A stretch of 64,000 bases of DNA from Novosphingobium sp. (GTDB taxonomy: Bacteria; Pseudomonadota; Alphaproteobacteria; Sphingomonadales; Sphingomonadaceae): contig JADLHU010000086.1 in assembly GCA_020848655.1 (NCBI GenBank), positions 1 through 64,000 on the forward strand, read 5' to 3'. Under the pieces are notes generated by a model. That model ran no database searches, was not told where the DNA came from, and saw only the letters and a list, made by a program, of their open reading frames with translations. The position numbers and the translations under genes were made by a program. Every line of letters starts with the position of its first letter. Position 1 is the first letter of the stretch. Positions 10,527 to 27,858 of the stretch are shown here, in pieces.

Positions 10527-12608
10527 TCAGCGCTTGCCGCGCTCGGCCTTCAGGTCGTTGGCTCGCTTGATGACATAAGCGCGGATGGCTTCGGTTTCCT
10601 CCGGCGAAAGATCCTTGCCGAAGTTCGGCATCCCGCGCGGTTCGGCCGCGCCTTGCAGGACGAAGCCCGCGAAGGCGGCCTTGTCGCCGATCATGGCCGA
10701 CATCCTGAGGTCCGGTACTCCGCCCTTGTTCACGCCGGTATCGCCGTGACACATCCAGCACCGCGTGTGGAACAGCGTGCGCCCCCGGGCGATCACCGCG
10801 TCGGATGCGGTGACGGCGGGCGGATCGAACGGCATGGACTGTTCTGCCGGAAGCACGGGCAGCTTGCCGGTGCCGCCCAAGCGGAACGTGACCACACGGT
10901 TGACCTTGGGCAATTGCGCCTTGTCCAGCGCCGCGCCCATGTTGAGCGGCAGGATGCCCCCCCAGCCGACCGCCACCGAGATATATTGCACGCCGCGCAC
11001 CGAATAGGTGATCGGCGGGGCGACGACGCCGGAATCGAGGTTGATCGACCAGAGCTTGCGGCCGTTGGTCGCGTCATAGGCGGCGAATTCGCCCGTGCCG
11101 TTGCCTTCGAACACGAGGCCCGACGCGGTTGACAGCACGCCGCCGTTCCACGGCGTGTCGAGCGGCACCGACCAGACTTTCCGGCGCTTGACCGGATCCC
11201 ACGCGATGAGCGCCCCCTTGACCGACTTGCCGATCTCGGCCCGGATCGCCGGGTCTTCCGGCATCGAACTGCGCGCCGGGTCCTGCCCGGTGTTCCAGCC
11301 GCGCGGATCGTAGCGGAACGCCCCTGGCTTGTCGGAGACATAGGGATAGGCCATTTCCGCGATCGGGAAATAGACGAGACCGGTGTTCGGGTTGAAGCTC
11401 ATCGGCTGCCAGCTATGCCCGCCGGCGGGCGAAGGCAGGCCCATGAACGGCTCGCCCGTCGTGCTGTAGCGCGCCGCTGGCACGATATTGGGCCGCCCGG
11501 TCTTGGGATCGAGGCCCGTGGTCCAACTGACCGGCACGTACGGCGTGCCCGAGATGAACTGGCCGTTGGTGCGATCGAGCACGTAGAAATGGCCGTTCTT
11601 CGGCGCCTGCATCAGCACCTTGCGCGGCTTGCTGTCGATCGTCAGATCGGCAAGGATCATGTGCTGGGTGGCGGTATAGTCCCACTCGTCGCCGGGCACT
11701 TCCTGGAAATGCCAGACATATTCGCCGGTCGAGGGACGCAGCGCCACGATCGAGGAGACGAAAAGGTTGTCACCCTTGCCCTGGCTGCGCAGCTTGTAGT
11801 CCCACGGACCGCCGTTGCCGACGCCGATGTAGAGCAAGTCGAGATCGGCATCATAGGCCATCGAATCCCATGCGGTGCCACCACCGCCGTATTTCCACCA
11901 TTCACCGCTCCAGGTGCCGGCGGCCATTTCCATCGCTTTGTTCTCGAAGCCCTTCTTCGGATCGCCCGGCACGGTGTAGAAGCGCCAGGCCTGCCTGCCG
12001 GTGGCGATGTCGTAAGCGGTGACATAGCCGCGCACGCCGTATTCGGCGCCGCCGTTGCCGATCACCACTTTGTCCTTCACCACGCGCGGCGCGCCGGTGA
12101 TGGTGTAGGACTTGTCCTTGTCGGTGGTCTGCACGCTCCAGACCGGCTTGCCGGTCCTGGCGTCGAGCGCGATCAGGCGCCCGTCGAGCACACTGACGAT
12201 GACCTTGCCCTGCGCATAGGCGACCCCGCGGTTGACCACGTCGCAGCAGCCCTTGCGAGCGACGGCGCCGTCGATCTCGGGATCGAACTCCCACAGCTTC
12301 CGGCCGCTCACCGCGTCGAGCGCGAGCACCTTGCTCCAGGGACCAGAGGCATACATCACCCCGTCGACGACGATCGGGGTGCCTTCGACGCCGCGCAGCG
12401 AGCGAGCGTCGAAATCGGCGTACCAGGCCACCTTCAGCTCCGAGACATTGCCCGGCGTGATCTCTTCCAGCGCGCTGAACCGCTTCTCGCCCGCATCGAG
12501 GCCATGCAGCGCCCAATCGACGTCCGCCGCCGTCTTGTGACCCTGCGAACATCCCGCTGCCGCCAGTGCGAGCAGGACCGCCGCGCACCACTGATTGGTC
12601 AATTTCAT
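10527..12608 (-). CDS. PQQ-dependent quinohemoprotein alcohol dehydrogenase with C-terminal cytochrome c domain
   Basis: Beta-propeller repeats, vicinal Cys (ARKGCCDVVNRG), heme motif CWMCH, signal sequence ending LAAAGC. Confidence 0.92.
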   Translation of the reverse strand: MKLTNQWCAAVLLALAAAGCSQGHKTAADVDWALHGLDAGEKRFSALEEITPGNVSELKVAWYADFDARSLRGVEGTPIVVDGVMYASGPWSKVLALDAVSGRKLWEFDPEIDGAVARKGCCDVVNRGVAYAQGKVIVSVLDGRLIALDARTGKPVWSVQTTDKDKSYTITGAPRVVKDKVVIGNGGAEYGVRGYVTAYDIATGRQAWRFYTVPGDPKKGFENKAMEMAAGTWSGEWWKYGGGGTAWDSMAYDADLDLLYIGVGNGGPWDYKLRSQGKGDNLFVSSIVALRPSTGEYVWHFQEVPGDEWDYTATQHMILADLTIDSKPRKVLMQAPKNGHFYVLDRTNGQFISGTPYVPVSWTTGLDPKTGRPNIVPAARYSTTGEPFMGLPSPAGGHSWQPMSFNPNTGLVYFPIAEMAYPYVSDKPGAFRYDPRGWNTGQDPARSSMPEDPAIRAEIGKSVKGALIAWDPVKRRKVWSVPLDTPWNGGVLSTASGLVFEGNGTGEFAAYDATNGRKLWSINLDSGVVAPPITYSVRGVQYISVAVGWGGILPLNMGAALDKAQLPKVNRVVTFRLGGTGKLPVLPAEQSMPFDPPAVTASDAVIARGRTLFHTRCWMCHGDTGVNKGGVPDLRMSAMIGDKAAFAGFVLQGAAEPRGMPNFGKDLSPEETEAIRAYVIKRANDLKAERGKR

Positions 12609-12692
12609 TGCCTGAATCCGTCTCGGCGCTGACCGCGCCCGTTCATTCCGAAAGCGAACAGGCGGGCGCCGCGCGGCGCCCGCCTCCACCGG

Positions 12693-14963
12693 TCACATCG
12701 AGAAGCCGAGCTTCACGTACCACTGGCGCCCGCGATCGAAGCTTTCCTGATAGAAGCCGAACGAGGGCTGGTAATCGCCGTAAGTGCGGAATTTCCTGTC
12801 GGTCAGGTTGTCCACGCCCACGGTCAGCGCATAGATGCCGTGGTTGTAGCGGATGCTCGAATTGATCAGGCTGTAGCCCTTCTGGTAAAGATAGGGGAAG
12901 TTGATGCCATTGGCATTGGTGAAGAAGCCTGAACGATAGGACCAGTCGACGCGCGGGACGAGCGTGTCCTCGCCGAACTCGAAGGTCTTTTCGGCGGATG
13001 CGCTCAGCGTCCACTTCGACACCAGCACGAACCTGGAATCGAGCGTCAGGCCCTGCACGCTGTTGTCCAGTTCGCGGTACTTGGCGTCGGTCAGGCCCGC
13101 TGCCGCGTTGAAGCGCCAGCCACCGCCGGGCGCGAGGTTGCCTTCCAGTTCGAAGCCGCGAATGCGCGCCTTGCCCGCGTTGGTATAGAACGGGCCGATG
13201 CGCGTGCTGTCGGCGACCAGCAACTGCATGTCGTTGTAATCCATCTGGAACACCGCGCCGTTGAGGCGGAAGCGGTTGCCAAGGCCCGACAGCTTGAAGC
13301 CGGCTTCATAGGACGTGACCTTTTCCGGCTGGAACGTCGGCAGCGTCGGCTCGGGCGCGGACAGGCGCTGGGTGAAGCCACCGCCCTTGAACCCTTGCGA
13401 ATAGGTCACGTACGTCATCAGGTCGTCGGTCAGGTGGTAGGCCACGTTGACCATCGGCGTCCACTTGCCGGAATTGTTGGAATAGGCGCGCTTGGGGACG
13501 ATGTAGCTGCCCGGCGCCGCAACGAAGTACGGCGGAAAATCGCTGATGACGAACTGGTCCGGCGTGAACTTCTTGTTGTCCTTGGTGTAGCGGATGCCCG
13601 CCGTCACATCGAGCTTCGACGTGGCATGCCAGGTGCCTTGCGCGAAGCCGGCCCAGCTCTTGTAGTTGAAGTAGCCGCCGCTTTGCTGGTCAAGGACGAG
13701 GAAGTTGACCGGGTTGATGTCCTGCCCGGTTTCCTTGAAGAAATAGGCGCCGACGATGTAATCGAGCACGCCCGGCACCTTGCCGACGATCTGCAGTTCC
13801 TGGGTGAACTGCTTCTGGCGGAATTCGTTCTCTACCGCGTTGATATCCAGGTTCGAACCATCGCGATCCTGCCCGAAGGCACCGCTGGTGTGGCGGTAGG
13901 ACGTGATCGACTTCAGTTGCATGTGATCGGCAAGATCGACCACGGCGGTGAAGGCGGTCGACCAGACCTCGATGTCCGAATACGTCGGATCGGTGCCGTA
14001 GAAGGTGTCCTTGCTGAAGAAGCGCGAATTGTAACAGCCGGCCGTGTTGAGGTTGGCCGCGGTATAGCAGCCCGCCGGATTGCCCGGCGCCGTGAGCGTG
14101 CCCATGGCGATCGCGTTGTTCAGCGTCACCATGCTGCCGGCTTCGTTCTGGTTGATACCGGTGACGACGACGGGCGCGCCATTGCTCTTGTCGCGCATGT
14201 AGTCGGCGGCAAGCGTCAGGTCGACGGTCGGCGCCGGACGCCAGCGCAGCGCGCCACGCACGGTCTTGGTGTCCTGGTTGCCCAGCTTGCCCTTCTGGTA
14301 AGGCGCATCGACATAACCGTCCTGGCTGAACAGGCCCGCGCCCAGCTTGGCCGAGAGCGTCTCGGTCAGCGGGCCGGCGACGAAGCCGCGCACATTGATG
14401 CGATCATCGATGCCGTACTTGATGTCGCCCTTGGCCACAAAGTGGTCGTCGGGCTGGATCGAGGTTATGTTGACCGCGCCGCCGATGGTGTTGCGGCCGA
14501 ACAGCGTGCCTTGCGGCCCGCGCAGCACTTCGACCGACTGCACGTCGATCATGTCGAACACGCCGCCGACCGAACGGCCAAGATAGACGCCGTCGACATA
14601 GATGCCGACGCCCGGATCGACGCCGGGCGCGAAGTCGTTCTGGCCGATGCCGCGGATATAGACCGCCGCGTTCGAGGCAACGCCGCTGTTGGCCGGCACG
14701 TTCGAGAAGCTGAGGTTCGGTGTGAAATCGGCGATGCGGCTGACCTGGGTGATGCCCTGCGCTTCGAGCCGCTCGCCACTGTAGGCGCTGATCGAGATCG
14801 GCGTGTCCTGCAGGTTCTCGGTCTGCTTGCGCGCCGTGACGGTGATTTCCTCAAGCGTATTGGCGCTGTCCTGGGCATGGGCCGGAACGGCCACGATGCC
14901 CATGGCGCTGGCGGCCAGAAGTGATGCCCTCATGAACCGCTGTCGTGCGGATGTGCGTGTCAT
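12693..14963 (-). CDS. TonB-dependent receptor
   Basis: Signal peptide, TonB-box-like LEEITVTARK, plug domain VEVLRGPQGTLFGRNTIGGAVNI, C-terminal beta strand ending YVKLGFSM. Confidence 0.95.
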   Translation of the reverse strand: MTRTSARQRFMRASLLAASAMGIVAVPAHAQDSANTLEEITVTARKQTENLQDTPISISAYSGERLEAQGITQVSRIADFTPNLSFSNVPANSGVASNAAVYIRGIGQNDFAPGVDPGVGIYVDGVYLGRSVGGVFDMIDVQSVEVLRGPQGTLFGRNTIGGAVNITSIQPDDHFVAKGDIKYGIDDRINVRGFVAGPLTETLSAKLGAGLFSQDGYVDAPYQKGKLGNQDTKTVRGALRWRPAPTVDLTLAADYMRDKSNGAPVVVTGINQNEAGSMVTLNNAIAMGTLTAPGNPAGCYTAANLNTAGCYNSRFFSKDTFYGTDPTYSDIEVWSTAFTAVVDLADHMQLKSITSYRHTSGAFGQDRDGSNLDINAVENEFRQKQFTQELQIVGKVPGVLDYIVGAYFFKETGQDINPVNFLVLDQQSGGYFNYKSWAGFAQGTWHATSKLDVTAGIRYTKDNKKFTPDQFVISDFPPYFVAAPGSYIVPKRAYSNNSGKWTPMVNVAYHLTDDLMTYVTYSQGFKGGGFTQRLSAPEPTLPTFQPEKVTSYEAGFKLSGLGNRFRLNGAVFQMDYNDMQLLVADSTRIGPFYTNAGKARIRGFELEGNLAPGGGWRFNAAAGLTDAKYRELDNSVQGLTLDSRFVLVSKWTLSASAEKTFEFGEDTLVPRVDWSYRSGFFTNANGINFPYLYQKGYSLINSSIRYNHGIYALTVGVDNLTDRKFRTYGDYQPSFGFYQESFDRGRQWYVKLGFSM

Positions 14964-15158
14964 TATACCCTCCTTGGAGTCGGATTTACTGCCGGACGTT
15001 TCCCTGCGAACGGTTCCGGGCTTCCGCCGGATTTCGTCGTTGTCAGGTTCTCAAGAGGGCGGCCCGGGCGCTAGCCGCGAAGGGTAGCGAATGTGCGAAA
15101 TGGGAAGCAAAGCGACGCGCATTGGCGCATGCAATTAGTAGATTTTGCACGCTTTTCG

Positions 15159-15178
15159 TTTGGCCGGTTATGGCCAAA
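15159..15178. promoter_or_regulatory. Inverted repeat TTTGGCC-N6-GGCCAAA in the TonB-receptor/AraC divergent intergenic region (candidate operator)
   Basis: Perfect 7-bp arms, 6-nt spacer, AT-richer intergenic region. Confidence 0.4.
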
Positions 15179-15345
15179 ACCCCCTGAAATAACATTAAAT
15201 CCCGGAACTACAAAGCGGATCGCAGCCAGAACCACTTGACAATTCAACTAATTCAAGGTCCATTTTGCGTTTCGCAGTAAGCGACTGGATGCGTATCATG
15301 ATCGAGGCGATCCGGCGCCGTCAACCGTCCGCAAGGAGGCTGGAA

Positions 15346-16338
15346 ATGCTGTCAGTTCAGAATGGATCGTCGCAGGCCGTCACTCGCCAGTTCCAGTCGA
15401 GCCAGCCAGACGAAGTGATCGATTATGTGGCGCGCAATCTCTCGCCGCACAGGATGAACGTCACGAACCCATCGAACATGGCGGCAAGCCTGCAGTGCAT
15501 GCGCGTGGCGGGTGTGCAGATCGTCGATATCCGGTACGGCACCGATGTGTCGATCGATGCCGAGGACCTGGGCGACCAGTTCCTGATTCACGCCGGCGTC
15601 AGCGGGGTATCGAAGGTCACGTCTGGCGGGCGGGCCGCGCAGATCACGCCAGCCAATATCTATATCACATCCCCGGGCCGCAGTTCGCGCATCCATATGC
15701 CCGCGCAGTGCCGCCACATTGCCGCGCGCATCGCCGCATCGACGTTCGAAACCCACCTTGCCGGCGCGATGAACGTGACGATGAACCGCCCGCTGGTGTT
15801 CCACGGCGCGCGCGAGGAGGACCACAATCTGCCGGCCGCCTGGCGCCAGTTGCTCCACCACATCGTCAGCCAGTGCACGCTTGCCCCCGCGCTGATGAGC
15901 GAGCCACGCATCCAGCGCCAGTATTCGATGCTGATGCTGGAGATGCTGCTGGGCGGCTATGCCAACAGCTATTCCGACCAGATCGCGCGGCAGGGCAACG
16001 ACATCGCCCCGCGCCACGTGCGCAAGGCCCGCGAGATCATCCACGAATCGATCGAGGACAGTGTTTCCGTGGCGGACATCGCCGCGCAAGTCGGCGTCAG
16101 CACGCGCAGCCTGCAGAACGGCTTTCGCCAGTTCCTGGGCGTCACGCCGGCCGAATACGTGCGCCGCCACCGGCTCGAACGCCTGCACACGGTGCTCAAG
16201 GACGCGCCGCCCGACAGCAGCGTGACCGAACTGATGCTCGAATGCGGGATCGTCAATTTCGGCCGCTTCGCCAACTACTATCGTCGCCAGTACGGCTGCC
16301 GCCCTTCCGACACGCTGCGCGGGCTGGCCCTCGGTTGA
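15346..16338 (+). CDS. AraC/XylS-family transcriptional regulator
   Basis: C-terminal double HTH SVADIAAQVGVSTRSLQNGFRQFLGVTPAEYVRRHRLERLH; AAGGAGG upstream of ATG 15346 (longer ORF starts 15265). Confidence 0.88.
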   Translation: MLSVQNGSSQAVTRQFQSSQPDEVIDYVARNLSPHRMNVTNPSNMAASLQCMRVAGVQIVDIRYGTDVSIDAEDLGDQFLIHAGVSGVSKVTSGGRAAQITPANIYITSPGRSSRIHMPAQCRHIAARIAASTFETHLAGAMNVTMNRPLVFHGAREEDHNLPAAWRQLLHHIVSQCTLAPALMSEPRIQRQYSMLMLEMLLGGYANSYSDQIARQGNDIAPRHVRKAREIIHESIEDSVSVADIAAQVGVSTRSLQNGFRQFLGVTPAEYVRRHRLERLHTVLKDAPPDSSVTELMLECGIVNFGRFANYYRRQYGCRPSDTLRGLALG

Positions 16339-16401
16339 TCCGGCCGGTGGGTGCCGAGCCGAGGCGTCAGACGCCCCTCGCCCCGCCCCCCGGCCGCACC
16401 C

Positions 16402-16965
16402 TCAGCGAACCAGCGAAGTCATCAGCACCGACTGCGCGATGAGCGACTTGGTCCAGTCGTTCGGCAGGTCGGCGATGAACAGGTTTTCGGTGCGGTAGCG
16501 GGCGATCTTCCAACCCATTGGCGTCTCGCGGAAAAACACGTGCAGACGGCTGGAACGCAGGATCGATGTGCCGTCGTCATGGATCCACGGCTGGAACTGC
16601 ACCCACTGGCCTTCGGCGCCTTCCGCCGTCGCCTGCACTTGCTCCGAACAGACGTAGTGCGTGTTGAACACCTGCCTGGGATCGCGCGCGGCATAGAAGC
16701 GGCCCATGTGCGCCGCGATCTCGGCAGGGCCGTTGTGGCGGCCGAACTGCGCGCCGTGCGCGCCGCCCACGCCTTCCCAGATCGCGTCCTCGGTAAACAG
16801 GTCGCCGATCATCACGGCGCGCTCCTCGGCCGACATCTCGCCTTCGGGAAGGGGCGAATCGCACAGGAACATGTAGCGCCCCAGAACCCGCCGCGCCGCC
16901 GCCTCCGCCTTGAGCGCGGCGACATCCTGCCGAAGCTGCGCGACCGCTGCTGCCAAGTCTTCCAT
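16402..16965 (-). CDS. SnoaL-like / NTF2-fold protein (IacI-like candidate)
   Basis: FTEDAIWEGVGG, FNTHYVCSEQVQ..., WKIARYRTENLFIAD; start trimmed to MEDLAAAV. Confidence 0.75.
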   Translation of the reverse strand: MEDLAAAVAQLRQDVAALKAEAAARRVLGRYMFLCDSPLPEGEMSAEERAVMIGDLFTEDAIWEGVGGAHGAQFGRHNGPAEIAAHMGRFYAARDPRQVFNTHYVCSEQVQATAEGAEGQWVQFQPWIHDDGTSILRSSRLHVFFRETPMGWKIARYRTENLFIADLPNDWTKSLIAQSVLMTSLVR

Positions 16966-17124
16966 GGGTGATCCTTCGAATGTCCAAAACCTGCCGGCCA
17001 TCCTAGGGCGAGCCTGCCAGGCCGGCCACTCCCGTCGACGCGAAAACCCAGCATTTCTGCGCGTTTCGGACAAATCCTGCGCCCCCCGTACAGAGGTGCG
17101 CGACAGGGCGGGGTAGACAGCGGA

Positions 17125-18189
17125 ATGCACGATTTCCGCTATGCCGCGCTGCCTTCGCACGTCGTGTTCGGAGCCGGCGTGATCGGCACCCTGGCCGACG
17201 AACTCGACCGCCTGGGCCTCGGGCGCCTCGTCGTCGTTTCGACGGCGGGACAGCGCGCTGCGGCGCGATCCATCGGCCGGTGGATCGGTGCGCGCTGCGC
17301 CGGCTATTTCGCGGGCGCGGCGATGCACACGCCGGTCGACGTCACGCGCCACGCGCTGGCCCGGATCGCCCCGCTCGATGCCGACGGGCTGATCGCGTTC
17401 GGCGGCGGATCGGCGATCGGCCTGTCAAAGGCCATCGCCCTGCGCACCGGCCTGCCGCAGATCGCCATCCCGACGACATATACCGGATCGGAAATGACGC
17501 CGATCTTGGGCGAGACGGAAAATGGTCTGAAAACAACGCAGTCCGCCGCGATCATCCAGCCCGGTACGGTGCTTTACGATCCCGACCTGACAATGGACCT
17601 GCCGGTGTCGGTTTCGGGGGTCAGCGGTCTCAACGCCATGGCCCACGCGGTCGAAGCGCTTTATGCACGCAACGGCAATCCGATCACCAGCCTGATGGCG
17701 GCCGAAGGCGTGCGCGTTCTGGCCCGTGCCCTGCCCGTGATCGCCACCACGCCGGGCGATCGCCAGGCCCGCTCCGATGCGCTTTACGGCGCGTGGCTGT
17801 GCGGCGTGTGCCTGGGCACCGTGGGCATGGCATTGCACCACAAGATCTGCCACGCGCTGGGCGGCACGTTCGGCCTGCCCCATGCGCAGACCCACGCGGT
17901 GATGCTGCCCCACGTGCTTGCCTACAACGCGCCCGCTGCGCCCGATGCCATGGCCGCGCTCGCCGCCGCGTTGGGCGATGCCGATCCGGCGCGCGCGCTG
18001 TTCGAGATCGGCCGCACGGTCGGTGCGCCCGCCGGCTTGCGCGCGCTGGGCATGGCCGAAAGCGACATCGACCGTGCGCTCGCGCTGGTGCTGGCCAATC
18101 CCTACTGGAACCCGCGCCCGCTCGAACGCGGGGCGCTGCGCGCGATGCTGGCGCGCGCCTGGGCGGGATCACCCCCGGCAAGCGAGTAA
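17125..18189 (+). CDS. Maleylacetate reductase (iron-containing alcohol dehydrogenase family)
   Basis: FRYAALPSHVVFGAG, GGGSAIGLSKAIALRTGLPQIAIPTTYTGSEMTPILGETENGLKTTQ, HHKICHALGGTFGLPHAQTHAVMLPH. Confidence 0.92.
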   Translation: MHDFRYAALPSHVVFGAGVIGTLADELDRLGLGRLVVVSTAGQRAAARSIGRWIGARCAGYFAGAAMHTPVDVTRHALARIAPLDADGLIAFGGGSAIGLSKAIALRTGLPQIAIPTTYTGSEMTPILGETENGLKTTQSAAIIQPGTVLYDPDLTMDLPVSVSGVSGLNAMAHAVEALYARNGNPITSLMAAEGVRVLARALPVIATTPGDRQARSDALYGAWLCGVCLGTVGMALHHKICHALGGTFGLPHAQTHAVMLPHVLAYNAPAAPDAMAALAAALGDADPARALFEIGRTVGAPAGLRALGMAESDIDRALALVLANPYWNPRPLERGALRAMLARAWAGSPPASE

Positions 18190-18214
18190 CCCCAGAAAAC
18201 AAGAGAGGAAATCC

Positions 18215-19075
18215 ATGATCGACACCACCGCCGCCTATTTCGATGCCGGCCGCTCCGCCGCGATCGTCAATGCCCGCATGGGGCCGGAAACCGACCCGCG
18301 CCTGCGCGAGGTTATGACAATCTTCGTGCGCCACCTTCATGCCGCCGTGCGCGAGGCGCGCCTGACCGGCGAGGAGTGGATGCGCGGCATCGAATTCCTG
18401 ACCGCCATCGGCCAGATGTGCAGCGACTGGCGGCAGGAATACGTGCTTTTCTCCGACGTTCTGGGCGTTTCGATGCTCGTCGACGCGCTCAATCACCAGC
18501 GTCCCGAAGGCTCGACCGAGAACACCGTGCTGGGCCCGTTCCACGTCGCGAAAGCGCCGCGCTATGCCAATGGCGCGAACATCTGCCTGGATGGCAAGGG
18601 CGAGAAAATGCTGGTCCGGGGCCGCATCACCGACAACGCCGGCCGTCCCGTTTCCGGGGCGAGCGTGGACGTGTGGCAAGCCAACGACAATGGCTTCTAC
18701 GATGTCCAGCAGCCGGGGGTTCAGCCGGCGATGAACCTGCGCGGCATCTTCACCACCGATGCGGACGGGAGCTACGGCTTCTACAGTGTGCGGCCGCGCT
18801 TCTACCCCATCCCCGACGATGGCCCGGTGGGCAAGCTGCTGGCCATGCTGGGCCGCCACCCCAATCGCGCCGCACACCTGCATTTCATCATCGAAGCAAA
18901 GGGTTACGAGCGCGTGGTCACGCACATCTTCACGCCCGACTGCCCCTATCTGGCCGAGGATGCGGTGTTCGGCGTCAAGCAATCGCTGATCGCCGACGTC
19001 CGCCGGGCCGAAGAAAACCGCGAGGATGGCGCGCTGTGGCTGGTGGATTGGGACTTCGTCCTGGCCCCGCACTGA
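18215..19075 (+). CDS. Intradiol ring-cleavage dioxygenase, hydroxyquinol 1,2-dioxygenase type
   Basis: LGVSMLVDALN, STENTVLGPFHV, VDVWQANDNGFYDVQ, FYPIPDDGPVGKLL, RAAHLHFIIEA; downstream of maleylacetate reductase. Confidence 0.88.
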   Translation: MIDTTAAYFDAGRSAAIVNARMGPETDPRLREVMTIFVRHLHAAVREARLTGEEWMRGIEFLTAIGQMCSDWRQEYVLFSDVLGVSMLVDALNHQRPEGSTENTVLGPFHVAKAPRYANGANICLDGKGEKMLVRGRITDNAGRPVSGASVDVWQANDNGFYDVQQPGVQPAMNLRGIFTTDADGSYGFYSVRPRFYPIPDDGPVGKLLAMLGRHPNRAAHLHFIIEAKGYERVVTHIFTPDCPYLAEDAVFGVKQSLIADVRRAEENREDGALWLVDWDFVLAPH

Positions 19076-19198
19076 ACGACACCTAAAGGCACCAGAAGGC
19101 TGCTGAACAACGTTGAAGCGCACCACAGGCCCAGCCGCGAGCGGTCGAGAACGCCGGCGCAGCGGAAATCGCGCCTCCCCGCGCCATTAAGTTGCAAA

Positions 19199-19208
19199 TT
19201 CATTTGAA
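19199..19208. promoter_or_regulatory. Candidate operator TTCATTTGAA within the palindrome AAATTCA-TT-TGAATTT (19196-19211), upstream of the SDR gene
   Basis: Perfect dyad, 35 bp before the start codon; matches TTCAnnTGAA at the other sites. Confidence 0.5.
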
Positions 19209-19243
19209 TTTAGTATTTCCTACCTGCAAATCTGGAGAATCCG

Positions 19244-19996
19244 ATGTCCAATCCGTCGCCCGATGTCGCCGTCGTCACGGGCGCTGCCCGCGGGCTGGGC
19301 GCGAGCATCGCGACCGCGCTGCTGAAGGCCGGCTATCGCGTCGCCGTCACCGATATTTCCGAGGACGCGCTGGCCGCCTTCGCCGCGCCCGATGGCATCG
19401 CCGCCGACCGCGTGCTGACACTGGTGCTCGACGTGCGCGAGAAGGCCGGGTTCGAAGCCGCGCTTGCCCGGATCGTGGACACCTGGGGCGCCGCGCACGT
19501 GCTGGTGAACTGCGCCGCGCTGACGCGCACCACGCCGCTGTTCGACATTGCGCCCGAGGAATTCACCGAGGTGATGACCGTGAACCTGGGCAGCGTCTTC
19601 GTGGGCAGCCAGGTGTTCGGCGCGCATTTTCGCGACCAGGGCTATGGCCGCATCATCAACATCGCCTCGCTCGCCGCGCAGAACGGCGGCACCGCCACCG
19701 GCGCGCACTATGCGGCATCGAAAGGCGCGATCGTGACGCTGACCAAGGTGTTCGCACGCGAGCTGGCGGCGGCGGGCGTCACCGTCAACGCCATCGCCCC
19801 CGGCCCGCTCGACGTGCCGCTGCTGCGCGAAATCCTGCCGGCCGAAAAGCTGGCGGGCGTGCCCGGCATGATCCCGGTGGGCCATCTGGGCGATCCCGGC
19901 TTCATCGGCAAGATCGCCTGCCTGCTGGCGGATCGCGACGCCAGTTCGATGACCGGCGCCACGCTCGACGCCAATGGCGGCCTCTACGTGCGCTGA
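19244..19996 (+). CDS. SDR family oxidoreductase (IacE-like candidate)
   Basis: VVTGAARGLGASIATALL, active site ...GAHYAASKGAIVTLTKVFA. Confidence 0.88.
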   Translation: MSNPSPDVAVVTGAARGLGASIATALLKAGYRVAVTDISEDALAAFAAPDGIAADRVLTLVLDVREKAGFEAALARIVDTWGAAHVLVNCAALTRTTPLFDIAPEEFTEVMTVNLGSVFVGSQVFGAHFRDQGYGRIINIASLAAQNGGTATGAHYAASKGAIVTLTKVFARELAAAGVTVNAIAPGPLDVPLLREILPAEKLAGVPGMIPVGHLGDPGFIGKIACLLADRDASSMTGATLDANGGLYVR

Positions 19997-20063
19997 TAGA
20001 GCCAGGCCGATCCGGCCCCAGCATCAGCATCAGCAGCGCTAGGGATGCTGCGGCCGCTGTGCC

Positions 20064-20420
20064 CTATTCCGGCATGACCAGTTCGCGGCCAAGGCGCGCT
20101 TCGACGCGCAGGTACTTCCACAGGCGATATTCGCCGACTTCGATGGTGCGGAACAGGTTGCACACCGCCACGGCGGTGGCGCGGTCTGGCACGTCGGCCA
20201 GGATGTAGAAGGTCCAGGGCCAGCCGTTGGGCGACGTGCCCACCATCGTCTCGTCGTCATCGAAGGTGCCCAGCACCTCGACGCCGGGCGTATCGCGGAT
20301 CTGGCGCAGCAACTGGCCGGTCGCCTTCAGCACGGTCGGGATTTCGGCGCCGGGCAGGTCGAAGAAATTCTGCAGCACCGCGCCGCAGAACAGCGCACGG
20401 ATCTTCTTGGGTTCAGGCAT
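20064..20420 (-). CDS. Small IacB-like protein
   Basis: 118 aa, ALFCGAVLQNFFDLPG..., directly downstream of the IacA-like gene. Confidence 0.6.
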   Translation of the reverse strand: MPEPKKIRALFCGAVLQNFFDLPGAEIPTVLKATGQLLRQIRDTPGVEVLGTFDDDETMVGTSPNGWPWTFYILADVPDRATAVAVCNLFRTIEVGEYRLWKYLRVEARLGRELVMPE

Positions 20421-20457
20421 GACGGTCCTCGTTCAGGGCAGGAAATGGCACGGCGCC

Positions 20458-21621
20458 TCAGGGAAAGCCGGCGGGGGCATCAAGGCCCAGCAGGCAGCGC
20501 CCGGCATTGAGCAGGGTGCTGTCCGAAAGGAACGCATGCTGCGGTACGATCAGCGCATCCTGCAGCCGGCGACCGATCGTGCTGTCAGTGAAGATGCCGG
20601 TGGTGCCGGCGCACTTGTAGACTTCCATGCACACGTCCGCGCCGGTGCGCGCGGCATGGCTTGCGGCAAGGCGCAGCGCGACGACTTCTTCGCGGGTGAT
20701 CGCGCGGCCTTCGCACAGCGCGGCATAGGTGCGTTCGGTCTCTTGATAGAACAGCGCGCGCGCGGCGCGCAGGCTGGCCTCGCCCTGCGCCACCGCCATC
20801 TGCACGGTGGGGCGATTGGCCAGCGATGGCGAGCCGGTGATCGAGGTGCGCCCCGAAGCCATCGCGACGATATCGTCCAGCGCGCCGCGCGCCGCGCCCA
20901 GCGCGACGATCGCCAGCACTTGCGCCGCCAGCGCCATCGACGGATAGCGATAGAGCGGCCCGTCCAGGCTGGAAGGCCCGCCGCGCACGAACGTCCATTC
21001 GCGGGGCACGACGACATCCTCGACCACCATGTCGTGGCTGCCGGTGCCCTGAAGGCCGTTGACGTTCCAGTTCTCCTCGATGCGCACGCTGGCGGCGGGC
21101 ATAACCGCGATCAGCGGCAGTCCGCCGGTGGGGTCGCTATTGTCCACCTTGATGCCCACGCCCATGATATCGGCGCCGGTGCAGCCGCTGCCCCACGACC
21201 AGCGGCCGTTGACCTGCAATCCGCCGTCCACCGGAACGGCGCGCTGCGGCGGGAAGATGCCGCCGGCAAAGACCACGTCGGGACCATTCGCGTACATCGT
21301 TTCCAGCGTCGCGACCGGCAGCGAGCCAAGGTAGATCGCCGAGAAGCCGAAGCTGGCGACCCAGCCGGTCGAGGCATCGACCGCCGCGATCCGCTCGATC
21401 AGGTTCAGGAACTCGGTCGGCGTGGCCTCGTCACCACCGAAGCGGCGCGCCACCATCATGCGGTAGACGCCCGCGCGCTTCAGCAAATCGACGATCGCCG
21501 ACGGCAGGCGGTGATCCTGCGCGATCCGCCCTGCCTGCGAGGGCAGCACAGCGAACAGTTCGTCCAGCGCGGCGGCCCGGAACGCGGATGACGTCGCAAT
21601 ATCGGCGGTGAGAGTGTCCAT
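20458..21621 (-). CDS. Acyl-CoA-dehydrogenase-fold flavin-dependent monooxygenase (IacA-like)
   Basis: FGGDEATPTEFLNLIERIAAVDASTGWVASFGF, GRWSWGSGCTGADI, GTGSHDMVVEDVVVPREWTF; co-located with other iac-type genes. Confidence 0.78.
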   Translation of the reverse strand: MDTLTADIATSSAFRAAALDELFAVLPSQAGRIAQDHRLPSAIVDLLKRAGVYRMMVARRFGGDEATPTEFLNLIERIAAVDASTGWVASFGFSAIYLGSLPVATLETMYANGPDVVFAGGIFPPQRAVPVDGGLQVNGRWSWGSGCTGADIMGVGIKVDNSDPTGGLPLIAVMPAASVRIEENWNVNGLQGTGSHDMVVEDVVVPREWTFVRGGPSSLDGPLYRYPSMALAAQVLAIVALGAARGALDDIVAMASGRTSITGSPSLANRPTVQMAVAQGEASLRAARALFYQETERTYAALCEGRAITREEVVALRLAASHAARTGADVCMEVYKCAGTTGIFTDSTIGRRLQDALIVPQHAFLSDSTLLNAGRCLLGLDAPAGFP

Positions 21622-21670
21622 GCAGTTCCTCGCGTTCGGCGCTTCGTGTCTGGGGCATTTTAATACCTAT

Positions 21671-21680
21671 TTCACGTGAA
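21671..21680. promoter_or_regulatory. Candidate MarR operator TTCACGTGAA in the IacA-like / MarR divergent region
   Basis: Perfect 10-bp palindrome; shares TTTCACGTGAAT (12 bp) with the minus strand of the site at 26929. Confidence 0.6.
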
Positions 21681-21831
21681 TATGCAATATCATTCTCGGT
21701 GCCGCTTGCCGCTGGGGTTGAGGCCCGGCGCGGTTCGCCGTATTCGGGCGTGACGCGCGTGCCGTGGCCGATTTCGAATTGCCGTTTTTCGAATCGCGAC
21801 GGTTTTCGGCAGCGCAAGGAAAGCGAGCAAG

Positions 21832-22314
21832 ATGCCCACGAACACCCCGACCGAGCCGCCCGAAGAGACCGGGGAAGCCGCCTATGATTTCAATTTCATG
21901 GAATGGCCGTTCTACTGGCTGGCGCGCGCCGACCGCTCGTACCTTTCGATCCTTGAAACCGCGCTGGCCCGCCGTGATCTGGACATCGCAAGCTGGCGCG
22001 TGCTGATGATCCTGCACGCCCGGCGCTCGGCCAGCGTCAGCGAGATCGCCGAGCATTCGATCGTCAAGCTTTCGACGATGACCAAGATCATCCAGCGCAT
22101 GCAGGCGGCGGGCCTTGTCACCAACCACCCCAGCAAAAGCGACGGGCGCGTCACCATGGTGACGATCACCCCCCAGGGCGAGGAAGCGGGCCGCATCGCC
22201 TGGGCCGAAGCCACCCGCATCATGGAGCGCCTGTTCGAGGACTTCACCGAAGTGGAGCAGCAGTTGCTGGTCGCGCTGCTCAAGAAGCTATCGGACGCCC
22301 TCGGCCGGTATTGA
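21832..22314 (+). CDS. MarR family transcriptional regulator (IacR-like candidate)
   Basis: ASVSEIAEHSIVKLSTMTKIIQRMQAAGLVTNHPSKSDGRVTMVTITPQGEE wing-HTH. Confidence 0.9.
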   Translation: MPTNTPTEPPEETGEAAYDFNFMEWPFYWLARADRSYLSILETALARRDLDIASWRVLMILHARRSASVSEIAEHSIVKLSTMTKIIQRMQAAGLVTNHPSKSDGRVTMVTITPQGEEAGRIAWAEATRIMERLFEDFTEVEQQLLVALLKKLSDALGRY

Positions 22315-22350
22315 GCCGGCCGCCGGAATCCCGGATCAGGCCCCCGTAAA

Positions 22351-23787
22351 TCAGGCCCGATGGCGTTCGTAGACGATCTTGCTGTCGGTGAAGGCCAGCA
22401 GGCCTTCCTCGCCGAACTGGGTGCCCAGGCCCGATTGCTTGTGCCCGCCGAAAGGCACCAGCGGGTGCAGTTCGGCATGGGTGTTGATATAGACGGTGCC
22501 GGCATCCAGCGCGTCGCCCGTGGCCGCAAGGCCCTGCGGATCGCTGCCCCAGACAGACGCGCACAGGCCGTATTCCGACGCATTGGCCATGGCGATCGCC
22601 TGGTCGGGCGTGTCATAGCGCACCAGCGGGATGGCCGGGCCGAACTGCTCCTGCGCGACGATGCCCATGGCTTGCGTGCAATTGGCCAGCACGGCCGGGG
22701 TCAGCCCATAGCCTTCGCCCACTTGCGTGCCGCCCGCCAGCAGGTTTGCGCCATCGCGCACGGCCTGCGCGATCAGCGCCTTGACCTTGGCGTGCTGCGG
22801 AGCGTTTTGCAGCGGCCCCATGTCGGACGATGCCTCAAGCCCGTTGCCCACCGTGGTGCCGCTGGCGATCGCCGCCAATGCCTCGGCCAGCGTATCGTGC
22901 TGTTCGTTCGAAACGTAGATGCGCTTGATCGCGCCGCACGTCTGCCCGGCATTTATGAAGGCGCCGAAGAACAGCCCCGGCGCGATATCGGCGATGGCGG
23001 CGCCGGGAAGCACGATGGCGGCATCGTTGCCGCCCAGTTCCAGCGTGCAGTCGGTCACGTTGAGCGCGGCGTTCTGCATCACGCGCTTGCCGGTGGCGGT
23101 GGAGCCGGTGAAGATCACCTTGTCGATGCCTTCGTGCAAAGACAGGCGCGTGCCCACTTCGCCATCGCCGGTGACGACGTTGAACACGCCAGCCGGCAGG
23201 ATCTGGTTGAGCAGTTCGGCCGCCCGCAGCGTGGAAAGCGGGGTGAACGGCGATGGCTTCATCACCACGCAGTTGCCCGCGCGCAAGGCCGGCAGCAGGT
23301 GCCACACCGCGATCAGCAGCGGCCAGTTCCACGGCGTGATCGAGCCGACGACGCCCTTGGGAACGCGCTTCTGCACCGCCCGCACGCCGCCGCCTTCCAG
23401 CACCACGCGATCGTCCAGCGCGAATTGCGCGGTCGCCATCGACCAGCCGACGCAGCCGCCCAGTTCGAACTGCGAACCGAAGCCGTTGGCGATGATCGGC
23501 CGGCCCTGCTCCAGCGTTATCAGCCGGGCGAGTTCCCCAGCATGGGCCTGGAACACATCGCCGATGCGCGTGCAATAGTGCGCGCGCGCCGCGTCGCCCA
23601 GCGCCGCCCATTCGGGGAACGCCGCCCGCGCCGCCGCGACCGCCCTGTCCACATCGTCCACCGTGCCCACCGGGCAGGTGCCGACCAGGCTGAGGTCGAA
23701 GGGATTGCGCACCTCGTGCCTCTCGCCCGAGGAAACCGGCTGGCCGCCGATAATCATGGGAAAATGCGGGACTTCCGGCTGGCTCAT
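22351..23787 (-). CDS. NAD(P)-dependent aldehyde dehydrogenase
   Basis: ITPWNWPLLIAVWHLLPALRAGNCVVMKPSPFTP, LELGGNDAAIVL, FINAGQTCGAIKRIYV. Confidence 0.94.
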   Translation of the reverse strand: MSQPEVPHFPMIIGGQPVSSGERHEVRNPFDLSLVGTCPVGTVDDVDRAVAAARAAFPEWAALGDAARAHYCTRIGDVFQAHAGELARLITLEQGRPIIANGFGSQFELGGCVGWSMATAQFALDDRVVLEGGGVRAVQKRVPKGVVGSITPWNWPLLIAVWHLLPALRAGNCVVMKPSPFTPLSTLRAAELLNQILPAGVFNVVTGDGEVGTRLSLHEGIDKVIFTGSTATGKRVMQNAALNVTDCTLELGGNDAAIVLPGAAIADIAPGLFFGAFINAGQTCGAIKRIYVSNEQHDTLAEALAAIASGTTVGNGLEASSDMGPLQNAPQHAKVKALIAQAVRDGANLLAGGTQVGEGYGLTPAVLANCTQAMGIVAQEQFGPAIPLVRYDTPDQAIAMANASEYGLCASVWGSDPQGLAATGDALDAGTVYINTHAELHPLVPFGGHKQSGLGTQFGEEGLLAFTDSKIVYERHRA

Positions 23788-23849
23788 GGCGCTTCTCCTG
23801 GTCGCGGGGGTATCGCGGGGGGTCGATGAATAGCCGCATCGCTAGATTT

Positions 23850-23859
23850 ATTACGTGAT
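23850..23859. promoter_or_regulatory. Degenerate TTCACGTGAA-like site (ATTACGTGAT) upstream of the aldehyde dehydrogenase
   Basis: 7/10 match to TTCACGTGAA in an AT-rich upstream region. Confidence 0.25.
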
Positions 23860-23963
23860 TTGTCAACTATAACTGAACATATCCGAGCAGCGCGCGCGGG
23901 CCACGAAAAAGCCCGGCCCGCGCCTGCGGACCGGGCAAAGTCGGGGAGGCATTCCCGAGGGAA

Positions 23964-24461
23964 TCAGAACAGGTAGCCGATGCCCCACAGCGGCTCGTCG
24001 GAATTGAGCAGGAGCACTTCCTTGCGCTCCAGCGCGATGCCGCCCGGCCCGCGCACCAGATGGTATTCGACATCGGCGGCGAGCACGCGGGTGCGTTCGA
24101 ACTTGAACTCGACCAATGTCTGCGCGCAGCGCACCACGGTCACGCCGCGCGTCGTATCGCCGGGCACGAAGCGCGACACCGTGCGCACCGTGCGCGCCGA
24201 TGGTGCCGAAGAGATCGCGAACCCGCTTTTCAGGCGCTTCACGCGCGCCGCGCGCATATCGCCATTGTCATAGGCGATGTTGAGCCGGGTGGCGGCATCG
24301 CCATCGCCGCGCTCGATCGGGATCACGTAAAGGCCGCTGGCGGTCCACAAGTCCAGCCAGGGGCGGTAGTCCTGCCGGTCGAGCAGTTCGGCCTCAGCCC
24401 AGATGAATTCGGCCGCCTCGGCCAGCGAGATCGTGTCGAGAAGCTGGTCCACGGTGCTCAT
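23964..24461 (-). CDS. Rieske non-heme iron oxygenase beta subunit (IacD-like)
   Basis: AEAAEFIWAEAELLDRQDYRPWLDLW...YVIP; ATG overlaps the alpha-subunit stop by 3-4 nt. Confidence 0.85.
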   Translation of the reverse strand: MSTVDQLLDTISLAEAAEFIWAEAELLDRQDYRPWLDLWTASGLYVIPIERGDGDAATRLNIAYDNGDMRAARVKRLKSGFAISSAPSARTVRTVSRFVPGDTTRGVTVVRCAQTLVEFKFERTRVLAADVEYHLVRGPGGIALERKEVLLLNSDEPLWGIGYLF

Positions 24462-25723
24462 GCCTCCATCATCCTCTTCCACATGCCGTAGGCGGCGCGC
24501 ATGCCGGTTTCGGCGCTGACATCGCCGACATTGCTGCCCGCGCCATGGCCGACCAGCGGGTCCTGCCCGCGATTGACGAGAATCCACAAGTCGTCGCCCG
24601 CCGCCGCGCCGCGCTGCACGCGCTCCCAGCCTTCGGCATCGTCGGGCGAACCGAAGCCCATCGGCCCCTGGAAGTGCTCGTGCAGGCGAAGACGCATGCG
24701 GTTGCCCGCTTCAGAGCCGCCGTCCATGCCGATGGCGATGTGGCGGATCTCGGTCTCGTCCACCGAAACCGGGCGCAGCACGCGGAAGAACGCCATCGAA
24801 CAGGCGACGTTGGGGAACAGGTTGAGGTTGAACCCGGTGCCGCCGACCGCGCGCACGATCCTGCGCACTTCGGCCTCGTCGCGCCCTTCGGCGCGCAAGT
24901 CCTCGGCCAGGGCGGCGAAACGTTCGGGAATGTCGGCGTCCTGCTCCAGGTCGACCAGATCGGGGATCATCACCATCAGGCTGTGGCCGTTGCCCAGGTC
25001 TTCCACCCAGCCGCCCTGACCCAGCACGTCGAAGACGTTGCCCGTCTCGGCATCCAGGCTGTCGATGAAGGTCTTGTGGACGATCGGGAAGTGATAGGCG
25101 TCGGTGGTGTTCTCAAGCTGGATCTTCCAGTTGCCGTTGAAGCGGAACTGGTGCTCGCCCATGGTCTTGACCGGGTGGCCCGCGCCCTGCTTCATGAACA
25201 GGTCCATCCACGTCTTCGCGGGGCCGAGGAACTCGACCAGCGGCTCGATATCGTCGCGGAACGTCGCGAAGATCATGCCCTGGTAGTGTTCCACCCGCAG
25301 CGAGACGAGCGGGAAATCGGCCTTGTCGAAATCCTCGCCATAGACGGCCGAATGCGGCACGCTGCGCAGCTTGCCGTCGATGTCATAGCTCCAGCCGTGA
25401 TAGGGGCACACGAATACCGAAGTCTTGCCCTTCTTCTTCTCGCAGACGGTGGCGGCGCGGTGGCGGCAACGGTTGAGCAGGACGTGGAACCGGTCGTCCT
25501 TGTCGCGCGTGACGATCACCGGCTGGTTGCCGACCCAAGACTTGACGAAGCTGCCCTTGACCGGGATCTCGCTGGCGTGCGCCACCCAGACCCAGGTGTT
25601 CTTGAAGATGCGCTCCATCTCCTCGTCGAAAATGGCGGGGTTCCTGTAAAGCGAGGTATGGACGCGGTCATCCTGCACGAGGGCCGCAAAGTTCCGCGCC
25701 TCCTCCTCCATCACGGCTGTCAT
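24458..25723 (-). CDS. Rieske non-heme iron oxygenase alpha subunit (IacC-like)
   Basis: Rieske CRHRAATVC...CPYHGWSY, catalytic domain NWKIQLENTTDAYHFPIVH. Confidence 0.92.
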   Translation of the reverse strand: MTAVMEEEARNFAALVQDDRVHTSLYRNPAIFDEEMERIFKNTWVWVAHASEIPVKGSFVKSWVGNQPVIVTRDKDDRFHVLLNRCRHRAATVCEKKKGKTSVFVCPYHGWSYDIDGKLRSVPHSAVYGEDFDKADFPLVSLRVEHYQGMIFATFRDDIEPLVEFLGPAKTWMDLFMKQGAGHPVKTMGEHQFRFNGNWKIQLENTTDAYHFPIVHKTFIDSLDAETGNVFDVLGQGGWVEDLGNGHSLMVMIPDLVDLEQDADIPERFAALAEDLRAEGRDEAEVRRIVRAVGGTGFNLNLFPNVACSMAFFRVLRPVSVDETEIRHIAIGMDGGSEAGNRMRLRLHEHFQGPMGFGSPDDAEGWERVQRGAAAGDDLWILVNRGQDPLVGHGAGSNVGDVSAETGMRAAYGMWKRMMEA

Positions 25724-25785
25724 GGTCGTTCTCCTTTCCTGCCGGAACCGCGAACGGCGCCGGAAACTGCGTCATTCTCGCGGCT

Positions 25786-26916
25786 CTAGAGCGCCGCTTC
25801 GAGCACGCGCCCAATGGCGCAGAGCGCGGCATCGGCGTTCCTGCGCCCGACGATCTGGACCCCGGCCGGCAGGCCATCGGCGGTCAGCGTCGGCAGGCTG
25901 AGCGCGGGATGGCCCGACAGGTTGAACGGGCGCACCAGTTCGCTCAGGCGCAGCGCCGCCGCCGCATCGGCGGCATCGGCCACGCGGATCGGCACGGTCG
26001 GCAGCGTGGGCAGCACCAGCGCGTCCACGGTTGCGAGCGCGGCATCGATTTCGGCGATGAAGCGCGCCCGCACGCCCTCGGCCTCGGCCACCTGATCGGC
26101 AGACACCCTGGACGCGGCGGCAAGGCGCGCGTCGACATCGGCCCCCAGCAGTCCGGTGCCGACGAGGTGCGCGAAAAGCGGGGCCATTTCCGCCGCGATC
26201 ACCGTGATGCCCGCCTTGTGGGCGAGCGCGAGCGAGGGCAGTTCCACCGATACGACCGCCACGCCGCTGCGCGCCATCACGGCGTCGACGGCGGCATCGA
26301 CATCCCCGTCCGCGCCGGTGCGCACGCGGCCCAACGTGACGCGCGCCGGCGCGATGGCGGGCGCGAAGCCGGGGCACATCGCCGCCATCGCCCGTTCGAT
26401 CATCGCCATGTCGCGCGCGAAGGGTCCGATGCAATCGAGCGAGCTGGACGCAGGCGTGGCGCCTTCACGTGAAATCGCACCGAACGTGGGCTTGAAACCA
26501 AAGACGCCGCAGCACCCGGCGGGCAGGCGGATCGAGCCGCCGGTGTCTGTGCCGATCGCGAAATCGACCAGCCCGGCCGCAACCGCCGCCGCCGATCCGC
26601 TTGACGATCCGCCGACGATCCGTTCGGGAAAGCGCGGGTTGCGCGGCGTGCCGGTGTGCGCGTTGATGCCCGTCACGCCATAGGCCAGTTCGTGCATGTT
26701 CGCCTTGCCGACAATGCGGCATCCGGCGCGAAGCACCGCATCCACCACGGCGGCATTGGCCTTTGCCGGCGCCGCACCGTCGAACGCGGCGCTGCCGCAG
26801 CCGGTGGGGAAGCCGGCAATATCGAGGCAGTCCTTGATCGCGACCCGCAGGCCATCGCCGCCGATGTCCAGGGTCTGGGTGAAGATCGCAGAATCGTCGG
26901 TGAAGCTCATGCGCAT
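25786..26916 (-). CDS. Amidase-signature enzyme (IacH-like)
   Basis: AIKDCLDIAGFPTGCGS, GGSSSGSAAAVAAGLVDFAIGTDTGGSIRLPAGCCGVFGFKPTFG. Confidence 0.92.
   Translation of the reverse strand: MRMSFTDDSAIFTQTLDIGGDGLRVAIKDCLDIAGFPTGCGSAAFDGAAPAKANAAVVDAVLRAGCRIVGKANMHELAYGVTGINAHTGTPRNPRFPERIVGGSSSGSAAAVAAGLVDFAIGTDTGGSIRLPAGCCGVFGFKPTFGAISREGATPASSSLDCIGPFARDMAMIERAMAAMCPGFAPAIAPARVTLGRVRTGADGDVDAAVDAVMARSGVAVVSVELPSLALAHKAGITVIAAEMAPLFAHLVGTGLLGADVDARLAAASRVSADQVAEAEGVRARFIAEIDAALATVDALVLPTLPTVPIRVADAADAAAALRLSELVRPFNLSGHPALSLPTLTADGLPAGVQIVGRRNADAALCAIGRVLEAAL
26464..26473. promoter_or_regulatory. Intragenic TTCACGTGAA inside the amidase gene (possible auxiliary operator)
   Basis: Identical 10-bp palindrome, in AT-richer codons ATT-TCA-CGT-GAA encoding I-S-R-E. 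Confidence 0.4.
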
Positions 26917-26928
26917 TTTGTATTATCA

Positions 26929-26938
26929 TTCACGTGAA
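26929..26938. promoter_or_regulatory. Candidate MarR operator TTCACGTGAA in the amidase / hydratase divergent region
   Basis: Perfect palindrome 12 nt upstream of the annotated amidase start, AT-rich flank. Confidence 0.6.
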
Positions 26939-27066
26939 ACATCAATTAAATTGTCGAGGCATGGGCTTGACCCCGGCAGGACCGGATGGAACAGCCGATG
27001 CCAGCCCTTCACGCGACCCCTGGCGCGCAAGCGCCCCCAGACCAAACGTCCACCAAGGAAACGCAC

Positions 27067-27858
27067 ATGAACGACGAGGCCATCCGGGCAGTAGCCCGCA
27101 CTTTTGCGGAAAAGCGGCGTGCGGCGACCGGTTTCGACGCCTTTCCCGGCGCGATGCCGGCCGACCTGGCGACGGCCTATGCGATGCAGGCGGCGGCGAT
27201 GGCGGAATGGGACCGTCCCCTCGCAGGCTGGAAGATCGGCCGCATCGCGGGCGAACTGGCCGAGCAGACCGGCGAGAACCGCTTCGTCGGTCCGGTCTTC
27301 ACCGACAGCGTGCAAGCTGCCGACATGGCCGGGAGCACGGCTTTCCCGGCCATACCCGCAGGCTTCGCAGCGCTTGAAGCCGAACTCGTCGCGGTGGTTG
27401 GCAATGCGGAAAGCCGCGACGACTGGACCGCCGAAGCATGCGCGCCGGCCATCGCCGCATGGCATATCGGCATCGAAGTGGCGGGCAGCCCCTATGCCGG
27501 CATTCAGGATGCCGGCGCGCTGGCGACGATCGCCGGGTTCGGCAACAACATCGGCCTGATCCTTGGCCCCAAGGTAGCGATCGCCGATCCCGCCGCGATG
27601 GTCGCCGCGGTGACCATCGACGGCAGCGAGGTCGCGCGCAAGGCCGCATCCGAACTGCCCGGCGGCCCGCTGGCGGCGGTCGCCTTCGCGCTCAACCGCC
27701 TGCACCGCATGGGCATCGCGCTGCCGGCCGGCACCCTGCTCTCGACCGGCGCGATCACCGGCGTCCATGCGGTGACCCCCGGCCAGCAATGCAGCGCGGC
27801 CTTCGCCCAGGGCGGCACCATCGCCTGCACGGTCATCCCACTGGCGGCCGGATCCTGA
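27067..27858 (+). CDS. 2-keto-4-pentenoate hydratase family (FAH superfamily) protein
   Basis: AGWKIGRIAGELA, GFAALEAELVAVV, AAWHIGIEVAGSPYAG, GAITGVHAVTPGQQ. Confidence 0.82.
   Translation: MNDEAIRAVARTFAEKRRAATGFDAFPGAMPADLATAYAMQAAAMAEWDRPLAGWKIGRIAGELAEQTGENRFVGPVFTDSVQAADMAGSTAFPAIPAGFAALEAELVAVVGNAESRDDWTAEACAPAIAAWHIGIEVAGSPYAGIQDAGALATIAGFGNNIGLILGPKVAIADPAAMVAAVTIDGSEVARKAASELPGGPLAAVAFALNRLHRMGIALPAGTLLSTGAITGVHAVTPGQQCSAAFAQGGTIACTVIPLAAGS

Follow-up and report, generated by a model that had tools for sequence, protein, structure and literature searches.

The iac pathway, by which bacteria degrade the plant hormone auxin (indole-3-acetate), as known from Pseudomonas putida 1290, Acinetobacter and Caballeronia glathei, leads to catechol, which is then processed by the catABC route. 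In the pNL2-type island of Novosphingobium aromaticivorans, the arrangement is amine dehydrogenase, aldehyde dehydrogenase (ALDH), iac genes and catBCA. Hydroxyquinol lower pathways are known from degraders of resorcinol, nitrophenol and chlorophenol, in which a hydroxyquinol 1,2-dioxygenase (HQD) and a maleylacetate reductase (MAR) together yield 3-oxoadipate, with hydroxyquinol usually supplied by the action of a phenol or hydroquinone hydroxylase. In C. glutamicum, the MAR and dioxygenase genes of the iolT2-rhcM2D2 operon are under the control of a repressor released by indole and 1,2,4-trihydroxybenzene (PMC7764795). This system is not an iac pathway, and indole is an effector there and not a shown substrate (PMC7764795). 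A search of the open-access literature returned no pathway in which iac is joined to hydroxyquinol, maleylacetate reductase or serotonin, a result that we regard as provisional.

The window, the whole 64,000-nucleotide stretch analyzed here, lies on contig C86 of a Novosphingobium metagenome-assembled genome (MAG; G000, 199 contigs, 88% complete) and contains an island spanning approximately 10527-27858. The iac core (iacA, iacE, iacC and iacD) is all within this island, as are iacB, iacH, iacR and an IacI-like SnoaL gene, and these are the components shared with the known iac pathway. The sequence-only reading had placed its MAR and dioxygenase genes in iac-like surroundings, which domain matches and island comparison bear out. 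Unlike the known pathway, the island carries HQD-MAR and no catABC, ALDH and PQQ-dependent alcohol dehydrogenase (PQQ-ADH) genes are added, and the window holds no match to the iacF/iacG reductase partners in tblastn searches using reductases of other islands as queries. The same iac genes and the same AraC, ALDH and SnoaL families are found in the pNL2-type island, which ends in catBCA-pcaD, whereas the window has HQD-MAR and a PQQ-ADH and lacks amine dehydrogenase genes; the TTQ amine dehydrogenase light chain has no match at 1e-25 in the 88% complete MAG. The HQD and MAR pair is as in hydroxyquinol lower pathways, but its neighbors are iac genes. In order, the features of the island are:

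10527-12602, minus strand: PQQ-dependent type II quinohaemoprotein alcohol dehydrogenase with fused cytochrome c (TIGR03075 over cut-off; PDB 1kv9/1yiq), some 90 bp downstream of the TonB receptor gene
12693-14903, minus strand: TonB-dependent receptor (Pfam Plug and barrel; 61% to the TonB receptor of the G180, G390 and G398 iac islands)
15415-16338, plus strand: AraC-family regulator (49% to the AraC adjoining ALDH in the EMRT-2 and pNL2 islands), with an uncertain start, as homology reaches back to about 15346
16402-16965, minus strand: SnoaL-like protein, IacI-like (PF13577; homologues in most iac islands examined)
17125-18189, plus strand: MAR (PDB 3hl0, 3w5s; Fe-ADH Pfam)
18215-19075, plus strand: HQD (PDB 8r2x, 3n9t, 1tmx; tree; motif columns)
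19196-19211, no strand: palindrome AAATTCATTTGAATTT, a possible variant iac operator 5' of iacE (palindrome search)
19244-19996, plus strand: short-chain dehydrogenase (SDR), IacE-like (68% to the G121 island SDR; 56-59% to the SDRs of loci L057-L060)
20064-20420, minus strand: IacB-like protein of 118 aa (70-85% identity to the iacA-adjoining gene of other islands)
20458-21621, minus strand: IacA-like flavin monooxygenase of acyl-CoA dehydrogenase fold (59-67% to IacA of EMRT-2, pNL2 and G121; tree)
21670-21681, no strand: palindrome TTTCACGTGAAT, a putative IacR operator in the iacA/MarR gap (palindrome search)
21832-22314, plus strand: MarR-family regulator, IacR-like (74% to the MarR adjoining iacA in G121)
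22351-23787, minus strand: ALDH (PF00171; best PDB matches include phenylacetaldehyde dehydrogenase 4o5h; 70% to its counterpart in the G121 iac/amine-dehydrogenase island)
23964-24482, minus strand: IacD, ring-hydroxylating dioxygenase small subunit (PF00866; island comparison)
24458-25714, minus strand: IacC, ring-hydroxylating dioxygenase large subunit (Rieske and Ring_hydroxyl_A; 83-84% to G121 and G180 IacC)
25786-26916, minus strand: amidase, IacH-like (PF01425; island comparison)
26928-26939, no strand: palindrome ATTCACGTGAAA, a second putative operator copy 5' of iacH (palindrome search)
27067-27858, plus strand: FAH/hydratase-decarboxylase family protein (PF01557; homologues in loci L049, L051-L053, L055, L152, L153 and L155)

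The FAH/hydratase-decarboxylase gene recurs next to iac genes in many sphingomonad islands. Just past the island, 27939-28352 encodes a gene-transfer-agent holin-like protein (PF11351).

The MAR and HQD reading frames are both on the plus strand and are separated by 25 bases. The best solved relatives of the former are the maleylacetate reductases 3hl0 (1.8e-113) and 3w5s (2.6e-113), matched at full length over residues 1-352. The HQD is closest among solved structures to 6-chlorohydroxyquinol dioxygenase 8r2x (3.9e-93), followed by PnpC 3n9t and HQD 1tmx, with CatA 1dlm far behind (4.9e-36); no NCBIfam name for either protein was over cut-off. A phylogeny of 46 intradiol dioxygenases, of the kind proposed in the sequence-only reading, places the window protein within HQD, which is separated from CatA with 100/100 support. 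Aligned columns show that the Tyr/Tyr/His/His iron-ligand positions are kept, and that the pocket motif is the HQD-type V-L-G-x-F as opposed to I-E-G-x-L in CatA. By sequence class, the product of 18215-19075 is a hydroxyquinol 1,2-dioxygenase and not a CatA, its substrate preference being predicted; coordinates, PDB ranking, tree and motif thus agree with the earlier assignment of a MAR followed by a hydroxyquinol-type dioxygenase. The location of an intradiol dioxygenase in an iac island might still suggest that it acts on catechol here, with the MAR as a leftover. We consider this very improbable given the separation from CatA and the HQD pocket motif, and moreover catechol-derived muconate needs catB/catC, not MAR, and in most of the loci read MAR and HQD occur as a pair.

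Hydroxyquinol had also been argued for from the missing catB and catC. No relatives of either were recognized among the island genes, and to that extent the observation stands, but the inference fails at the genome level because contig C162 of this MAG carries a catB-catC-catA-pcaD run, with a muconolactone isomerase and another intradiol dioxygenase (binning may misplace contigs, C162 among them). Plain indole-3-acetate (IAA) could therefore still go via catechol and the C162 run. In that event iac and HQD-MAR may be fortuitous neighbors, with HQD-MAR serving an unrelated source of hydroxyquinol such as hydroquinone, resorcinol or nitrophenol. The resemblance of the upper iac enzymes to those of HQD-free islands is in keeping with such an arrangement; against it, no hydroquinone or resorcinol hydroxylase was found adjoining HQD-MAR in the island, and the pair is placed between the IacI-like gene and iacE, within the iac genes themselves.

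Regulatory sites bear on the same question. Exact TTCACGTGAA palindromes are found in the iacA/MarR gap, 5' of iacH and once inside iacH, and a variant, ATTCATTTGAAT, is found 5' of iacE. Copies of TTCACGTGAA, exact or differing at one position, also occur close to the iac genes of G121, G180 and a small number of others; it is absent from the pNL2 and EMRT-2 loci, and G395 has one one-mismatch site. Because the sites lie by iac genes and none of the TTCACGTGAA type lies 5' of MAR, the palindrome is likely an IacR operator in this island, and MAR-HQD may be regulated apart from the iac genes. A separate promoter for iacE is suggested by the palindrome lying between HQD and iacE. A promoter motif common to MAR and the iac genes was sought and none was found, and sigma-70 and terminator scans were near chance. 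Co-expression of MAR-HQD with iac is only presumed, because the putative operator is absent 5' of MAR and iacE may be transcribed separately, and the lack of an iac operator 5' of MAR adds to the case for fortuitous neighbors.

The strongest support for a hydroxyquinol ending comes from comparison with other islands. In the pNL2-type order (G397, which is N. aromaticivorans pNL2, G347, G261 and G405), flavin reductase-iacE-iacB-iacA is followed by ALDH, AraC, iacD-iacC-iacH and amine dehydrogenase, ending in a CoA-transferase-thiolase-pcaD-catBCA block; the stretch read in G261 showed no iacDCH. The G395 island is collinear with pNL2 from the flavin reductase to the cytochrome gene, over about 15 genes at 57-84% per protein, and has MFS-HQD-MAR at the place of the pNL2 cat block, together with an extra TonB receptor and PQQ-ADH relative to that order. 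No cat genes were found in 60200-137700 of the G395 contig, including 28 kb read past MFS-HQD-MAR, and its IacA is sister to the IacA of cat-type islands (100/99 in the IacA tree). A related module containing amine dehydrogenase, MFS, HQD and MAR is found in EMRT-2, G265 and G328, located hundreds of kb from iac or on another contig, and the iac loci of these three have their own catBCA.

Together with 8r2x, the HQDs of G395, EMRT-2, G265 and G328 make up one clade (100/99). The window HQD belongs to a separate clade (100/99), where its closest relatives (72-75% identity) come from plasmids or from genomes lacking linked iac, a point on the side of fortuitous proximity; iacA was checked for and is absent in G570, G571, G104, G286, G411 and others. 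Since the window and G395/EMRT-2 enzymes belong to two clades and the nearest relatives of the former lack linked iac, the trees indicate that HQD-MAR has joined iac islands at least two times in Novosphingobium. PQQ-ADHs of 72-80% mutual identity go with HQD-MAR in the window, G395, EMRT-2 and G265 (the window protein is 72-73% identical to those of the EMRT-2 and G395 modules), and the cat-type islands read yielded none of these PQQ-ADHs. The EMRT-2/G395-clade TTQ amine dehydrogenase (light chain at 80% or more) is present in 9 of 196 Novosphingobium genomes (G265, G276, G328, G346, G347, G261, G397, G405 and G395), all 9 of which have iacA, and likely points to the use of tryptamine or serotonin. 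At the EMRT-2 module on pABRDHK22 (L109, 643573-649376), HQD-MAR is adjoined by enoyl-CoA hydratase, formylglycine-generating enzyme, GH3 and arylsulfatase genes, whose products might free sulfated or glycosylated conjugates. For the G328 HQD (L090), the match in one search extends over residues 7-184 only and the region of the second Tyr is missing from the alignment; this HQD is possibly damaged.

To see how widely the two modules occur, we surveyed 251 Sphingomonadaceae genomes, where a close IacA was found in 13 and a clear HQD in 11, and 196 Novosphingobium genomes, where iacA was found in 21 and HQD in 13. Among the Sphingomonadaceae loci read with 14-20 kb around the match, iac and HQD-MAR occur together in the window only, and a contig scan with HQD returned three distant loci only. 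Both iacA and HQD are present in 7 of the 196 Novosphingobium genomes (G000, G265, G276, G279, G357, G371 and G395), where 1.4 are expected (hypergeometric 7e-5, ignoring shared ancestry and genome size; G265 and G276 are close relatives), while 6 of the 13 HQD genomes are without iacA. In G279, HQD and MAR lie next to catBCA-pcaD-iacH-iacA-iacB, and in G357 and G371 HQD-MAR is unlinked to iac. IacA similarity was rejected as a marker of HQD linkage, as the tree needs 5 changes for the HQD-linked rows and 49 of 500 shuffles are as low. Given that HQD-MAR takes the place of cat in the collinear island of G395, that there were two separate recruitments and that iacA and HQD co-occur in excess, we consider it doubtful, though credible, that iac and HQD-MAR are neighbors by chance. 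The claim that hydroxyquinol is the ring product accordingly draws on this comparative evidence and no longer on the missing catB and catC.

We lean slightly towards reading the island as a variant iac pathway for an indole already hydroxylated at C5 (or C6) that ends in hydroxyquinol, the substrate being most plausibly 5-hydroxytryptophol, 5-hydroxyindole-3-acetaldehyde or 5-hydroxyindole-3-acetate (5-HIAA) of the serotonin family. The sequences themselves establish what the genes are, the HQD rather than CatA class, the linkage, the exchange of cat for HQD-MAR in a relative and the two recruitments; we infer the substrate, the order of steps and the meeting of iac product and HQD in the cell. 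The substrate would be taken up by the TonB receptor, its alcohol oxidized to the aldehyde by PQQ-ADH and the aldehyde to the indole-3-acetate by ALDH; IacA and IacE would oxidize the pyrrole ring, and IacB, IacH and IacI with IacCD would leave a ring with two adjacent hydroxyls. The positions para to the nitrogen-bearing C7a and to C3a of indole are C5 and C6, respectively. With oxygens left at C3a and C7a, a hydroxyl on C5 or C6 would therefore come to position 4 of the resulting catechol, giving 1,2,4-trihydroxybenzene, that is, hydroxyquinol, which HQD would convert to maleylacetate and MAR to 3-oxoadipate. A more specific version, in which Novosphingobium has at least two times assembled a dedicated mineralization of serotonin, 5-hydroxytryptophol and 5-HIAA via iac to hydroxyquinol by exchanging or adding the lower pathway, is possible and is put forward tentatively. 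The published iac work consulted here ends in catechol; a hydroxyquinol ending, if true, would make the iac route modular and able to be aimed at hydroxylated indoles of plants and animals. Cat-type and HQD-type islands would then offer a natural contrast for iac substrate scope and for the steps from dioxindole-acetate to catechol, and the hydroxyquinol ending is directly testable in cultured Novosphingobium.

Several observations favor 5-hydroxyindole substrates by analogy. The PQQ-ADH and ALDH pair fits a sequence from indole-ethanol to indole-acetate. The Caballeronia IacA oxidizes tryptophol and IAA and not tryptamine (PMC7225977), so that an amine would sensibly be deaminated beforehand. 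In Acinetobacter, 5-chloro-IAA inhibits growth on IAA, an effect that the authors ascribe to iac processing of substituted IAA (PMC12502551). A point against is that the window IacC is 83-84% identical to the IacC of HQD-free islands, so the upper pathway bears no visible mark of a hydroxylated substrate. The lack of amine dehydrogenase, iacF/iacG relatives and an MFS gene in the window island also counts against this reading, as do the distance of the HQD module from a cat-equipped iac locus in EMRT-2, G265 and G328 and the 6 HQD genomes that have no iacA. The sequence-only reading had offered either a further ring hydroxylation of IAA or a hydroxylated indole substrate, and the second fits better. 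Under the first, plain IAA (or tryptophol or tryptamine) would be the substrate and one more hydroxylation of an iac intermediate would yield hydroxyquinol from IAA itself, and the G395 swap, which leaves the rest of the island (amine dehydrogenase, ALDH) in place, is what an unchanged substrate would produce. We judge it unlikely: the genes of the window island are accounted for without an additional ring hydroxylase and none was found there, no extra hydroxylase gene goes with HQD-MAR in G395 or EMRT-2, and IacA and IacC closely resemble their counterparts in catechol-type islands.

Compared with the 5-hydroxyindole route, another substituted indole-acetate (e.g. 6-hydroxy, 5-methoxy or halogenated), whose substituted catechol would pass to HQD-MAR, seems a rather remote prospect. 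Among solved structures, the HQD is closest to a 6-chlorohydroxyquinol dioxygenase, and the Acinetobacter effect of 5-chloro-IAA could be read in the same direction, but a halogen without a hydroxyl would lead to a chlorocatechol and not to hydroxyquinol, and neither a dehalogenase nor an O-demethylase was recognized in the island. The chlorinated natural auxin 4-chloro-IAA was likewise considered as a substrate and dropped, as it would be expected to give chlorocatechol, not hydroxyquinol.
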